From the NCBI GenBank assembly GCA_004173455.1, contig SECL01000002.1:1-64000 (forward strand): 64,000 nucleotides of DNA, read 5' to 3'. The translations under genes and the position numbers were made by a program. This DNA is from Moraxellaceae bacterium. Its GTDB lineage: Bacteria; Pseudomonadota; Gammaproteobacteria; Pseudomonadales; Moraxellaceae. Of the stretch, positions 15,448 through 46,047 are shown one piece after another; position 1 is the first letter of the stretch, and the number at the start of each line of letters is the position of its first letter. The notes beneath the pieces are model-generated. The model did no database searches. It saw only the letters and a program-made list of their open reading frames with translations, and was not told the DNA's origin.

Positions 15448-16605
15448 ATGTCTCAACATCATTCCACGGTAGCCAACACGCCACTGGCAGGCTTAAAAGT
15501 ACTCGACTTTTCAACCTTGTTGCCCGGTCCTTTTGCCACGCTCATGTTGGCCGATTTGGGCGCTGAGGTGATTCATGTGGAATCACCCACCCGTGTTGAT
15601 CTGGTACGGGTTATGCCACCGTATGCCGATGGCCAGTCTGCCGCGCATGCCTATTTAAACCGCAATAAACAGTCGTTGACGCTGGATTTAAAAAACCCGG
15701 CCAGTATTGAAAAAGTAAAATCCTTGTTGGGTGAATTTGACATTGTGGTCGAGCAATTTCGTCCCGGTGTAATGCAACGCTTGGGGCTTGGTTATGATGA
15801 TTTAAAAGCGATTAACCCGCGCCTGATTTATTGTTCCATTACCGGCTACGGCCAGACAGGTTCCTACAAGGATCGTGCCGGGCATGACATTAATTATGTG
15901 TCGCTGGCAGGGATTGCAGGTCACAGCGGGCGGCAGGATAGTGGCCCACCAGCACTGGGCATACAAGTGGCTGATGTGGCAGGTGGTTCGCTGCATGCGG
16001 TGATCGGGGTTTTGGCGGCAGTGATTGAGCGCCAGCAGAGCAATCAAGGTCAGCATATTGATATTTCAATGACCGATTGCGCCTTTACCTTAAATAATAT
16101 GGCAGCCGCCGCGCAAGTCGCTGGCGCTGAAGATCAGGCGCCCGAAGCAGCTACCCTCAATGGCGGTAGCTATTACGATTACTTTAAAACTGCTGATGGT
16201 CGTTATATTTCGGTAGGCAGCTTAGAACCACAATTTATGCTGGGCTTAAGCGCGGCGCTGGAATTGCCCATTTTGGCGCAAAAAGGCGCCTCGATGTTTG
16301 ATGATGATCGTCAGGCAGTCAAAGATGCGGTCAAACAAGCCATTGCAGCACAGCCATTTGCCCATTGGCAGCAGGTGTTTAGCCAACTGGATGTGTGCGT
16401 AGAACCAGTGCTGAGCTTAAAGGAAGCGACTGAATCCCAGTTGGCTCAAGATCGCGGTTGGCTGGTCGATGTACCCTTAACTGCCCAAAATCAAAACCAC
16501 CAAAAACAACTGGCGTGTCCGATCAAGTTTTCCCGCAGTACAGCGCGTTATGACTATGTTGGTCAGCAGCTGGGTGAAGCCAATGCACAATGGGGAGATG
16601 TTTAA
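15448..16605 (+). CDS. CaiB/BaiF family CoA-transferase
   Basis: A 385-residue class III CoA-transferase or alpha-methylacyl-CoA racemase-like protein. Family features are the N-terminal GLKVLDFSTLLPGPFATLMLADLGAEVIHVE, then NRNKQSLTLDLK, the FRPGVMQRLGLGYDDL segment, and the active-site region YCSITGYGQTGSYKDRAGHDINY with the catalytic Asp. The acyl substrate is unknown. It overlaps the alpha/beta hydrolase gene by one base (TAATG), so the two are translationally coupled. The divergent AraC regulator is the probable controller. Confidence 0.9.
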   Translation: MSQHHSTVANTPLAGLKVLDFSTLLPGPFATLMLADLGAEVIHVESPTRVDLVRVMPPYADGQSAAHAYLNRNKQSLTLDLKNPASIEKVKSLLGEFDIVVEQFRPGVMQRLGLGYDDLKAINPRLIYCSITGYGQTGSYKDRAGHDINYVSLAGIAGHSGRQDSGPPALGIQVADVAGGSLHAVIGVLAAVIERQQSNQGQHIDISMTDCAFTLNNMAAAAQVAGAEDQAPEAATLNGGSYYDYFKTADGRYISVGSLEPQFMLGLSAALELPILAQKGASMFDDDRQAVKDAVKQAIAAQPFAHWQQVFSQLDVCVEPVLSLKEATESQLAQDRGWLVDVPLTAQNQNHQKQLACPIKFSRSTARYDYVGQQLGEANAQWGDV

Positions 16606-17642
16606 TGGAATCAGTTAAGACGTTGGTTCAGCAGTTGTATCAAAAACCCATAGCGCCAGAAGAATTGCGCGCGCGCTGGAAAGTGGATGCGCCATGGAAA
16701 TCCACAGGCTCTTTAGAGTCGCTAAATATAACCATTGGCAAGCTCATGTACCGCAATGCCCTGTCGCGCGAGGGACAGCTTTATGGTTTTAAGCTGCGCC
16801 ACCATCAAATTGATGGCTTTAATATGCACTGGCTATGCAACGCCAAGCCCAAAAAATCACGTGGCACCATATTACTGCTGCATGGTTTAAGTGCTGAAAA
16901 ATCGCACTGGATTCGCTTTGCACGTTATTTTGTCAAAGATTACCATATTATTATTCCTGATCTGGCGGCACATGGGCAAACGGGTTATTTGCCCAATGCA
17001 GACTATGGCACCCGTGCGCAGGCTCAGCGTCTTATTGATTTATTAGATCATTTAAAAATAAGTCAAGCGCATGTGGTGGGCAATTCCATGGGCGGTTTTG
17101 TGGCAGCGCGTTTGGCCGCAGATTGGCCGGAACGCATCAACAGTCTTTGTTTGATGGATGCTGCGGGTTTGCAGGCACGCACCCATAGCGTGTTGGTACA
17201 GTCTATAGAATCTGGTCGTAATCCGTTTTTATTACATTCTTTGCCTGAGTTTGAAAACCTGATGGCATTAGGAGCGCATAAATATCAATGGTTACCGGCA
17301 CAGGTCAAATTAATGCTGGCTAAACAATATTCTGATCGGCGTGAACGACTGTTTAATGTGTTTTTACATTTGCAGAATGAAATCTATCCAGAGGACTGGA
17401 TCAGTGTGGAAATGCCCAAGCTCAAAATGCCTACATTCATTGTGTGGGGCGAGCTGGATAAACTGCTGGATATTGACATGATGCAGCATTTTAAGGAGCT
17501 GATTCCGCATGCCAAAACCGTGGCGATGAAGCTCACCGGACATATGCCCATGCTGGAGCGACCATTACAAACCGCAAGACACTATCGAAAATTTTTGAAA
17601 GAAAGTGCAGTAGCGTCTTTGGCTGAAAGTATAAGCACTTAA
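16605..17642 (+). CDS. Alpha/beta-hydrolase fold protein
   Basis: 345 residues from ATG 16605, chosen because TAATG overlaps the previous stop and GGGGAG lies eight bases upstream. The alpha/beta-hydrolase core shows the oxyanion segment ILLLHGLSAEKSHW, the nucleophile elbow VGNSMGGF, the acid region IVWGELDKLLDID and the catalytic His in LTGHMPMLERP. This pattern fits lipase or carboxylesterase-like hydrolases. No signal peptide is visible. Operon context with a CoA-transferase suggests acyl-ester or fatty-acid metabolism, but the substrate is unknown. Confidence 0.88.
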   Translation: MESVKTLVQQLYQKPIAPEELRARWKVDAPWKSTGSLESLNITIGKLMYRNALSREGQLYGFKLRHHQIDGFNMHWLCNAKPKKSRGTILLLHGLSAEKSHWIRFARYFVKDYHIIIPDLAAHGQTGYLPNADYGTRAQAQRLIDLLDHLKISQAHVVGNSMGGFVAARLAADWPERINSLCLMDAAGLQARTHSVLVQSIESGRNPFLLHSLPEFENLMALGAHKYQWLPAQVKLMLAKQYSDRRERLFNVFLHLQNEIYPEDWISVEMPKLKMPTFIVWGELDKLLDIDMMQHFKELIPHAKTVAMKLTGHMPMLERPLQTARHYRKFLKESAVASLAESIST

Positions 17643-17755: not shown

Positions 17756-17773
17756 TGTAAGCCATAGCGTACA
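17756..17773 (+). promoter_or_regulatory. GacA upstream activating sequence
   Basis: TGTAAG-CCATAG-CGTACA matches the Pseudomonas GacA box TGTAAG-N6-CTTACA at 11 of the 12 specified positions. It lies 40-70 bp upstream of the likely start of a GGA-rich RNA. The GacS/GacA (BarA/UvrY) two-component system is known to control RsmX/Y/Z-type RNAs through this element in pseudomonads. That it works here is inference. Confidence 0.65.
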
Positions 17774-17805: not shown

Positions 17806-17990
17806 ATCAAATACGCGATGATGTGTTTAGCGAATCAAGGATGATATGGCACGGATTAGCCATAAGGATAGCGCTCGTTGAAAGACGGGTAACTCGCAAG
17901 GCTCGAATGGATATTTCGAGAACAGGATGTATAGCAGGATGCTAAAGAAATTCCCGACCATTCAGGATGAATATAGTCGGGCTTTTTTAT
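17806..17990 (+). ncRNA. Candidate RsmX/Y/Z (CsrB)-type CsrA-sequestering small RNA
   Basis: No ORF is present, but seven GGA motifs occur in about 130 nt (17839, 17853, 17866, 17909, 17925, 17937 and 17965). Several sit in short hairpin loops: ATGGC/GCCAT (17846-17863), CTCGAA/TTCGAG (17902-17920), TAGC-AGGAT-GCTA (17932-17944) and ATTC-AGGAT-GAAT (17960-17972). An intrinsic terminator ends it. Loop-borne A(N)GGA is the binding signal of CsrA/RsmA. The 5' end is estimated from a possible -10 (TATTTT, 17794-17799) and may lie up to about 25 nt further on. Such RNAs bind several CsrA dimers and relieve translational repression. The overall pattern is strong; the identity is not proven. Confidence 0.72.
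17953..17988 (+). terminator. Rho-independent terminator of the candidate sRNA
   Basis: CCCGAC (17953-17958) pairs with GTCGGG (17976-17981), followed by CTTTTTT. A smaller hairpin inside it displays an AGGAT loop, so the terminator stem also carries one of the GGA motifs. Confidence 0.85.
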
Positions 17991-18030
17991 GCCTGAATCA
18001 ATGGCAAGTACAGGACGGTATTCAGGGTTT

Positions 18031-18076
18031 ATCAATAAAACCGTTATGAATTATGCAAAAAAAACGTTTTATTGAT
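18031..18076. repeat. 11-bp perfect inverted repeat upstream of cysI
   Basis: ATCAATAAAAC (18031-18041) and GTTTTATTGAT (18066-18076) are perfect reverse complements separated by 24 bases. They lie about 60 bp before the cysI start. It could be a regulator-binding site or an mRNA leader hairpin. It is not followed by a T-run. Confidence 0.5.
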
Positions 18077-18134: not shown

Positions 18135-19778
18135 ATGTATCAATATACCGAGTTTGACCAGAACTTGCTCAATGAGCGACTGGCTCAATTTACCAACCAG
18201 ATTCAACGCTACCTCGCAGGCACTTTGTCTGATAGCGAGTTACTCCCATTGCGTTTGCAAAATGGCCTTTATATCCAGCGTTATGCGCCTATGTTTCGTA
18301 TTGCCGTGCCTTACGGTTTGCTGGCCAGTCGCCAGCTACGCAAACTGGCAGAAGTTACCCGCAAATACGATCGTGGCTATGCGCATGTGTCGACCCGCCA
18401 GAATTTTCAGCTCAACTGGACAGCACTGGAAGATATTCCGGCGGCGCTGGCCGAGCTGGTAAGTGTGGAAATGCATTCGATTCAGACCAGTGGTAACTGT
18501 ATCCGCAATACCACCACTGACCAGTTTGCCGGCGTGACACCGGGCGAAGTGGCTGACCCACGGCCAACCTGTGAGTTGATTCGGCAGTGGAGTACTTTCC
18601 ATCCTGAGTTTGCATTCCTGCCGCGCAAATTTAAAATTGCGGTGTCTGCACTGGCCGAAGTGGATCGGGCAGCGACAGCGTTTCATGATATTGGCGTTTA
18701 TATTGTCAAAAATGAAGCGGGCGAGATTGGCTACCGGATTTTGGTGGGTGGTGGTTTGGGGCGTACCCCGGTGATTGGCAGTTTTATCCGTGATTTCGTA
18801 CCGCGTGAAGACTTGCTGGCCTACCTTGAAGCGATTGTACGGGTGTATAACCTGCATGGTCGTCGTGACAATAAGTATAAGGCACGCATCAAGATTCTGG
18901 TGCGTGCGCTCACGCCTGAGGTATTTGCGCAAAAAGTAGAGGCTGAATTTGCCCAAATCCGTGGCCAGCGCAAAACCGAACCTGAATTGTTGGCGCGTAT
19001 GGATGCTGTGTTTACACCGCCTGCCTATGACACGCTGGAAAATGAGGACTTGTCCGCGCAGTTTGCTGCCGATAAAGCCTTTGCCAACTGGTATCGCCAC
19101 AATACCCATGCGCATAAAATCCCCGGCTACCGCATTGTGACCCTGTCCTTAAAGCGGGCAGGCATTGCGCCGGGTGATATTACTGATGATGAGCTGGACA
19201 TGGTGGCCGATCTGGCCGACCAGTACAGTTTTGGCGAAATCCGCAACACCCATGAGCAAAACATGGTACTGGCTGATGTGCCGCAAAAAGACCTGTATGC
19301 GGTGTATCAGGTGCTCAACCAGCACAATATGGCACGCGCGCATATTGGCTTTGTGACTGATATCGTGTGCTGCCCGGGTGGCGACTACTGCTCACTGGCC
19401 AATGCCAAATCCATCCCAATTTCTGAAGCCATTAGCCGTCGTCTGGATGATCTGGACACTGTCTATAATCTGGGCAAGATTGACCTGAACATTTCAGGTT
19501 GCATGAATGCCTGTGGTCATCACCATGCGGGCCATATTGGTATTTTGGGCGTGGATAAAAAAGGCGCTGAGTTTTATCAGATCACGCTGGGTGGCAATAG
19601 CGACCATGATGCCAGCATTGGTAATATTCTGGGGCCATCATTTGCTGCGCAGGAAGTACCGGATGTGGTCGAGGAAGTCCTCAATACCTATCTGGACTTA
19701 CGGACTGACGGCGAACGCTTTTTAGATACTTATCGTCGTGTTGGCATTGAGCCATTCAAGGAGCGCACATATGCCTAA
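18135..19778 (+). CDS. cysI: Sulfite reductase hemoprotein subunit (nitrite/sulfite reductase family)
   Basis: A 547-residue siroheme/[4Fe-4S] reductase that reduces sulfite to sulfide in assimilatory sulfur metabolism. The N-terminal ferredoxin-like half-domain has YAHVSTRQNFQLNW and the substrate/cofactor segment SGNCIRNTTTDQFAGV. The iron-sulfur/siroheme cysteines lie in CCPGGDYCSLANAKS and ISGCMNACGHHHAGHIG. No Shine-Dalgarno sequence is obvious before ATG 18135. The gene overlaps the DUF934 gene by eight bases, an arrangement typical of Moraxellaceae and pseudomonads. A nitrite reductase assignment is less likely given the DUF934 partner. Confidence 0.92.
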   Translation: MYQYTEFDQNLLNERLAQFTNQIQRYLAGTLSDSELLPLRLQNGLYIQRYAPMFRIAVPYGLLASRQLRKLAEVTRKYDRGYAHVSTRQNFQLNWTALEDIPAALAELVSVEMHSIQTSGNCIRNTTTDQFAGVTPGEVADPRPTCELIRQWSTFHPEFAFLPRKFKIAVSALAEVDRAATAFHDIGVYIVKNEAGEIGYRILVGGGLGRTPVIGSFIRDFVPREDLLAYLEAIVRVYNLHGRRDNKYKARIKILVRALTPEVFAQKVEAEFAQIRGQRKTEPELLARMDAVFTPPAYDTLENEDLSAQFAADKAFANWYRHNTHAHKIPGYRIVTLSLKRAGIAPGDITDDELDMVADLADQYSFGEIRNTHEQNMVLADVPQKDLYAVYQVLNQHNMARAHIGFVTDIVCCPGGDYCSLANAKSIPISEAISRRLDDLDTVYNLGKIDLNISGCMNACGHHHAGHIGILGVDKKGAEFYQITLGGNSDHDASIGNILGPSFAAQEVPDVVEEVLNTYLDLRTDGERFLDTYRRVGIEPFKERTYA

Positions 19779-45429: not shown

Positions 45430-46047
45430 TTACGCCGCCATATCCAGCATACGATCAATAGCATTGGTCGCTTCTGTTTCATGCTTAAAGTGGCGTGACA
45501 GGACAAAGCGCCAGCACACGCCAAATGCCGCTTTATAAAACTCATTGAACTCGGCCTGTGTCATTTTGGTAAAACTAATCGATTTGGCTTTTTTCTCAAG
45601 GCTGTTGTCGGGTAGGCGCACGACATCGTAATAGCCACATTCCACTTTAATCCAGCGATGAATCTCGGCGGTGCTGGCCGGTACAGGATTGATCAGCTTG
45701 GCTGCGCGTTTTTGCGTCAGCTTTTGCAAATAATCCTGCTGCAATGCCTGACTTTGCTCAACCGACAAATCAATGCCCTTGCTTTGCAGGTAATGGCAAA
45801 ACGATGCCGCTGTTCTCACTTCAGCCGGATGTACCAGTCCACTTTGCGGCTCCCAGTAATCCTTGACCAGTCCAATCAGTCCACCAAAATACAACCGGTG
45901 ATGTTGTAGGCTGCGATCGGCCTGACGTTTGGTTTCGGTTTTGATCACCTGTCCAATCCGGTAGTTTTGCCGCATCATGGCATGGTCGTGCTCGGTAGCA
46001 GGCACCAGCGCACGACCATTACACACCATCATCATCTCTACACTCAT
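45430..46047 (-). CDS. Phage DUF1367 family protein
   Basis: 205 residues. The family pattern is clear: N-terminal GRALVPATEHDHAMM, FGGLIGLVKDYWEP in the first half, then WIKVECGYYDVVRLPDNSLEKKAKSISFTKMTQAEFNEFYKAAFGVCWRFVLSRHF near the C-terminus. DUF1367 is found in lambdoid and related prophages, in the replication/recombination region; its function is unknown. The start overlaps the nuclease gene's stop by four bases (ATGA). Confidence 0.82.
   Translation of the reverse strand: MSVEMMMVCNGRALVPATEHDHAMMRQNYRIGQVIKTETKRQADRSLQHHRLYFGGLIGLVKDYWEPQSGLVHPAEVRTAASFCHYLQSKGIDLSVEQSQALQQDYLQKLTQKRAAKLINPVPASTAEIHRWIKVECGYYDVVRLPDNSLEKKAKSISFTKMTQAEFNEFYKAAFGVCWRFVLSRHFKHETEATNAIDRMLDMAA

Follow-up and report, generated by a model that had tools for sequence, protein, structure and literature searches.

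Small RNAs of the Rsm/CsrB type have been predicted in Acinetobacter, and Kulkarni et al. 2006 is said to be the source of these predictions. In the accessible parts of other reports, RsmX, RsmY, and RsmZ of A. baumannii are described as found by genome inspection and uncharacterised (PMC7366521), two such RNAs are predicted in A. baylyi ADP1, at ACIAD0018/0019 and ACIAD2750/2751 (PMC5568370), and a CsrB-like RNA is drawn into the A. baylyi network (PMC12442408). The available excerpts of two further papers present CsrA as essential for A. baumannii growth on rich medium (PMC12802169) and GacA as a virulence regulator in that species (PMC12070743). The RNAs expected to link GacA and CsrA in this family are so far predictions in the published work that was accessible to us. 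A preliminary description of the locus considered here stated that no RNA of this class was known to be established at this position in an Acinetobacter-like genome. Our literature search, which covered mostly papers outside subscription, found no report of the locus or of a GGA motif in a terminator loop, but the excerpts cited above show that Rsm-type RNAs as such had already been predicted in Acinetobacter (PMC7366521, PMC5568370).

We analyzed a 64,000-nucleotide stretch of Moraxellaceae DNA (hereafter, the window), which very probably encodes a small RNA that is switched on by a two-component system and soaks up CsrA. By far the best reading of its sequence, and one that we hold with high confidence, is a gene (copy A) for a small RNA that GacA activates and that sequesters CsrA. 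Copy A is one of two near-copies (A and B) in a set of four RNAs. We read the RNA as working like RsmX/Y/Z and CsrB while standing, by sequence model, outside all of their Rfam families; it is a well-known kind of RNA that the standard RNA models miss. It resembles the Pseudomonas RsmX, RsmY, and RsmZ RNAs in its length class, its several GGAs in loops, and its terminator, and it shares an exact GacA-type box upstream with RsmY of P. protegens FD6 and repeated CAGGATG motifs in hairpins with E. coli CsrB. Unlike RsmX, RsmY, and RsmZ, the window RNA has a GGA in its terminator loop, and CsrB of E. coli K-12 differs again in carrying 22 GGAs over 369 nt with none in the terminator loop. The predicted Rsm/CsrB-like RNAs of Acinetobacter are similar in bacterial family and proposed role.

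The comparison with Rfam that the preliminary description had proposed came out below curated scores. A search of the window with all Rfam 15 families, including RsmY (RF00195), returned no match at the gathering score. CsrB (RF00018) gave a subthreshold match at 17912-18076, scoring 28 bits against a gathering score of 71 (E 5e-6, 501-base search), and part of this match lies beyond the terminator, in sequence that is not conserved between copies. Across 18 related loci, the only Rfam matches at gathering score were two tRNAs and one group II intron. PrrB_RsmZ (RF00166) and rsmX (RF02144) were run on the whole of the genome from which the window comes, and RF00195 on the window and some loci; RF00166 and RF02144 matched nothing in that genome or in A. 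calcoaceticus. In P. protegens, which served as a control, RF00166 scored 131.2 bits, RF02144 108.7 bits, and RsmY 125.5 bits. The window RNA and its kin, as a concrete conserved set with a box, a start region, and sites, could seed new RNA models, because current models reach the gathering score in none of those examined.

The RNA gene is flanked by an alpha/beta hydrolase gene (16590-17642) on one side and a cysI-type gene (18135-19778) on the other. Seven GGAs start in the gap between them at 17839, 17853, 17866, 17909, 17925, 17937, and 17965, forming a cluster of 129 nt (17839-17967), so that the seven GGAs within 130 nt first described were recovered. Structure prediction places exactly four of them (17853, 17909, 17937, and 17965) in hairpin loops, where at least four had been proposed, and leaves 17839, 17866, and 17925 single-stranded. 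The extent originally given, 17806-17990, does contain the RNA, but its 5' boundary is probably too far upstream. Copy A spans 17829-17988 on the + strand (~160 nt), with a 5' end that probably lies near 17829, and the unit also takes in an upstream box (17756-17773) that had been missed. Stop codons in all frames of all eight copies indicate that the RNA is untranslated.

Four hairpins precede the terminator, all on the + strand. The first (17846-17863, ATGGC...GCCAT, five pairs) holds GGA 17853 in its loop and pairs in 100% of cells of the alignment, with one pair varying on one side only. The second (17873-17890, seven pairs, 91.1% of cells paired) has no GGA and carries the best covariation support, with both partners changed in at least one copy for four of its seven pairs. 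The third (17902-17920, CTCGAA...TTCGAG) presents GGA 17909 in its loop, and one of its six pairs changes on both sides. It is followed by a CAGGATG motif (17923-17929), invariant in all eight copies, in which GGA 17925 is predicted to be single-stranded. The fourth hairpin (17932-17944, TAGCA-GGA-TGCTA, with GGA 17937) is invariant except at its outermost pair, which is unpaired in 6/8 copies. The intrinsic terminator (17953-17988) consists of CCCGAC...GTCGGGC followed by TTTTTT and encloses a nested hairpin, ATTCA-GGA-TGAAT, with GGA 17965 in the loop. The terminator hairpin and T run recur in every copy, as does the GGA within them, in agreement with the claim that one motif sits inside the terminator itself.

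A DNA similarity search of 58 genomes found the element in four (G000-G003), namely those returned for the window's own genus, each with two copies; these eight sequences make up our alignment. One additional match, L009, covered the terminator only and was rejected. Across the eight copies, the box block has a mean pairwise identity of 94%, the spacer one of 77%, and the RNA, which includes invariant blocks, one of 91%; in the seven columns preceding these parts the value falls to 41%, and in the 29 columns following them to 36%. The conserved unit is therefore the box plus the RNA. Conservation of the GGAs in relatives and compensatory changes in stems had been named as informative checks, and both gave positive results. 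All eight copies retain six of the seven GGA positions; the remaining one, 17909, is present in seven of them, the exception being copy B of the window's own genome. Across the 39 pairs of the named structure, 95.2% of cells pair, and five pairs change on both sides, compared to zero to two when partners were slid by one to three columns; five such pairs were reached in 4/500 shuffles. These figures come from eight related rows, which are few, and from a structure drawn partly from folds of the same sequences, which favors pairing. An alternative model, R1, based on a promoter-plus-RNA alignment, was dropped because it imposed structure on promoter DNA. In G002 and G001, copies A and B within the genome are each other's closest relatives (98.6% and 96.3% identity, respectively), which suggests gene conversion between them; in G000 and G003, the two copies are not mutually closest.

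This pattern of conservation bears on the alternative that survives best, namely that the element is a base-pairing small RNA, for example an Hfq-dependent one, whose GGAs have no role of their own. Conservation, structure, and an intrinsic terminator would fit that description too. However, the GGA positions are nearly fixed while stems without GGA vary by compensation, and three other box-bearing RNA types or loci share GGA loops although their remaining sequence differs. We therefore regard a base-pairing RNA as improbable. The conserved GGA sites and stem compensation instead favor the assignment to the CsrA/RsmA-sequestering class that had originally been suggested.

The genomic position of the element raises a second alternative, that it regulates cysI as a leader or attenuator. 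In 4/4 genus genomes, copy A does precede cysI on the same strand, as the preliminary description had it for the window. Yet the same box and RNA recur in copy B, which sits between two other genes in 4/4 genomes (a metallo-beta-lactamase-fold gene and one with no Pfam match), and the RNA has its own terminator and is separated from the cysI start by ~146 nt. Moreover, at the other 80 cysI loci, among them those of Acinetobacter, our structure model of the element (R2) found nothing before cysI (E<0.05), and two weak model matches are located behind cysI on the other strand. A cysI leader is thus very unlikely. The hydrolase adjoins copy A in the window's own genome only; in the other three genomes, its place is taken by a CaiB-type gene. 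Because of this and the separate location of copy B, the RNA is tied to neither cysI nor the hydrolase.

The GacA-type palindromic box, TGTAAGCCATAGCGTACA, occupies 17756-17773 on the + strand, with its center ~65 nt before the inferred RNA start. It follows the pattern TGTAAG-N6-CGTACA and lies within a longer conserved block that starts with GTTAACTTT at about 17747; its half-sites are invariant in 8/8 copies. We take the GacA consensus to be TGTAAG-N6-CTTACA, from which the window box is one base off. The exact pattern occurs at four places in the window's own genome, two of which belong to copies A and B and two to additional RNAs, C (contig C49, 91431; L173) and D (contig C3, 49231; L174). 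Both C and D are followed by nine GGAs at 40-240 nt downstream, have a GGA in the terminator loop, and are also present in the other three genus genomes. Across the four genomes, 16 of the 17 exact boxes have 7-10 GGAs at 40-240 nt downstream, the exception being L230 with two, while only 0.46% of 25,520 overlapping 200-nt stretches of the window hold at least seven. Around 11 near-miss boxes in the own genome (22 sides), there were at most four GGAs, and boxes with two mismatches (76 places) were hardly commoner than the control (66 places). Local alignment detected a block shared by RNAs A and D (score 47, best of 200 mononucleotide shuffles 38); the score for A and C (31, shuffles' best 33) was at chance level. 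In P. protegens FD6, the exact box occurs at one place, directly before RsmY (Rfam 125.5 bits). No TGT-N12-ACA box was found within 110 nt upstream of P. protegens RsmX or RsmZ or of E. coli CsrB, so the class as a whole is not marked by it.

The protein partners of such a circuit appear to be encoded as well. CsrA was found in 58/58 genomes searched, and the 79-aa CsrA of the window's own genome matches solved CsrA proteins. A 211-aa response regulator has UvrY/SirA/GacA as its best family (263 bits, cut-off 280; next 159), and a hybrid kinase has BarA (545 bits, cut-off 890; next place 181). Together with the GacA-type box, these CsrA-, GacA-, and BarA/GacS-like genes lend support to the Gac control that had been proposed for the locus. 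For copy A we infer transcription, binding by GacA and CsrA, and an effect on targets, in the following order. The BarA/GacS-like kinase would activate GacA, which would bind the palindromic box ~65 nt upstream of the start and turn on the ~160-nt untranslated RNA. CsrA dimers would then be held at the seven GGA sites, of which four lie in hairpin loops, and mRNAs repressed by CsrA would be released. Near-copy B, RNA C, and RNA D, each behind a box of this type, would act in parallel. It could be argued that a GacA-linked RNA binds CsrA for a purpose other than sequestration, such as being regulated or stabilized by CsrA or delivering it, as a sequence cannot tell a sponge from another CsrA-bound RNA. 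However, at least seven sites per RNA and four RNAs per genome fit titration best, and we give a non-sequestering role very little credence.

The case from the window by itself is no more than fair. The density of GGAs is only mildly unusual on its own. Among 5,000 dinucleotide shuffles of the gap, 46 contained at least seven GGAs within 130 nt, and the window holds one other 130-nt stretch with seven GGAs and no further one (- strand, near 45959). The fold energy of copy A is ordinary (z −1.05), with values of −2.28 in a paralogue and −1.96 in an orthologous copy. A scan for sigma-70 promoters found none for the window copy, and a simple terminator scan flagged one place, on the - strand only, leaving the + strand hairpin of copy A unflagged. 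Given that shuffles reach the density and that the fold is ordinary, density and energy are weak evidence alone, and the strong evidence is the conservation and the box. A chance cluster of GGAs with no function, which the shuffles and the ordinary fold would allow, is rendered negligible by the conservation, covariation, box, and copies.

The unusual trait of these RNAs is the GGA in the terminator loop, which is absent from the CsrB, RsmX, RsmY, and RsmZ examined, the comparison RNAs being those of P. protegens and E. coli K-12. It is present in 16/16 RNAs (A-D) of the own genus. To a sample of 42 family box loci, picked as GGA-rich, we added RsmY, and in these 43 chosen loci our script identified an unpaired GGA in the terminator hairpin of 32, all 16 RNAs of the own genus among them, with two more recognized by eye (L193 and L119). 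Four loci were read by eye because the script chose a wrong T run (L193 and L156), found none (L119), or produced an odd fold (L141). The nine loci without a terminator-loop GGA were two from genus g7, two from g9, three from g10, L135, and RsmY. In this sample, the trait thus separates the own genus, Acinetobacter, and four other genera from g7, g9, and g10. The terminator of one Acinetobacter RNA type (E, below) presents a GGA triloop on a perfect stem, with ACA-GGA-TGT at its tip. We tentatively raise the possibility, which we consider rather doubtful, that this branch of the family uses the terminator hairpin, too, as a binding site for CsrA, which would amount to a lineage-specific redesign of the Gac/Rsm sponge. 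If so, CsrA on the terminator loop could shield the 3' end or influence termination, and the lifetime of the sponge would depend on its own CsrA occupancy.

Beyond the genus, the exact box was found in 122 of 149 family genomes and in 13 of 16 genera, with a reversed control much rarer in most, and both Acinetobacter and further genera of the family have comparable RNAs downstream of such boxes. The exact box is absent from most genomes of genera g2 and g13, and CsrA is present in all of those searched; these genera may rely on different boxes, or the circuit may have been lost in them. In the 58 genomes, structure model R2 gave further matches in five. Matches with imperfect boxes upstream occurred in three other genera, at L106 (40.9 bits), L107 (32.2 and 33.9 bits), and L108 (30.3 bits), and are weak. 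Those at L109 (22.8 bits), where the likeness was limited to the terminator-like part, and L110 (21.2 bits) had no box and were rejected. L107, in genome G013, comprises two type-C-like RNAs in tandem, spaced ~580 nt apart, and the same imperfect box, TGTAGTCTTTGGCTTACA, accompanies both.

Genus g15 appears, from shared sequences, to be Acinetobacter. Among the loci fetched from named Acinetobacter genomes, there were two kinds of box-plus-GGA RNA: type D in A. calcoaceticus (L185) and A. pseudolwoffii (L193), and type E in A. albensis (L204), A. pseudolwoffii (L207), and A. tandoii (L199). RNA D of the window's own genome resembles the box-bearing RNA of A. calcoaceticus, and both adjoin the same endonuclease/phosphatase-type gene. 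A. kookii has seven box places, and the four that were fetched showed no GGA-rich stretch; many other exact boxes in Acinetobacter are likewise not followed by one.

A further conserved RNA-like stretch adjoins recD in Acinetobacter-like genomes and A. calcoaceticus (L166, L196, L124, and L137), with a palindromic box, three to four GGAs, and a terminator with a GGA in its loop. According to the accessible part of one report, adaptive mutations in evolved A. baylyi strains hit a predicted small RNA between recD and ACIAD0400, and csrA was likewise hit (PMC11426457). The recD-adjoining stretch may be this same RNA. Box-bearing, GGA-rich RNAs were also observed tail to tail with csrA at L108 (genome G032) and L151 (genome G006), the former being long, with 17 GGAs ahead of its T run. 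Lastly, genome G022 contains a second, very divergent CsrA-like match (contig C20, 249074-249205) at 27.6 bits, against a Pfam cut-off of 27.
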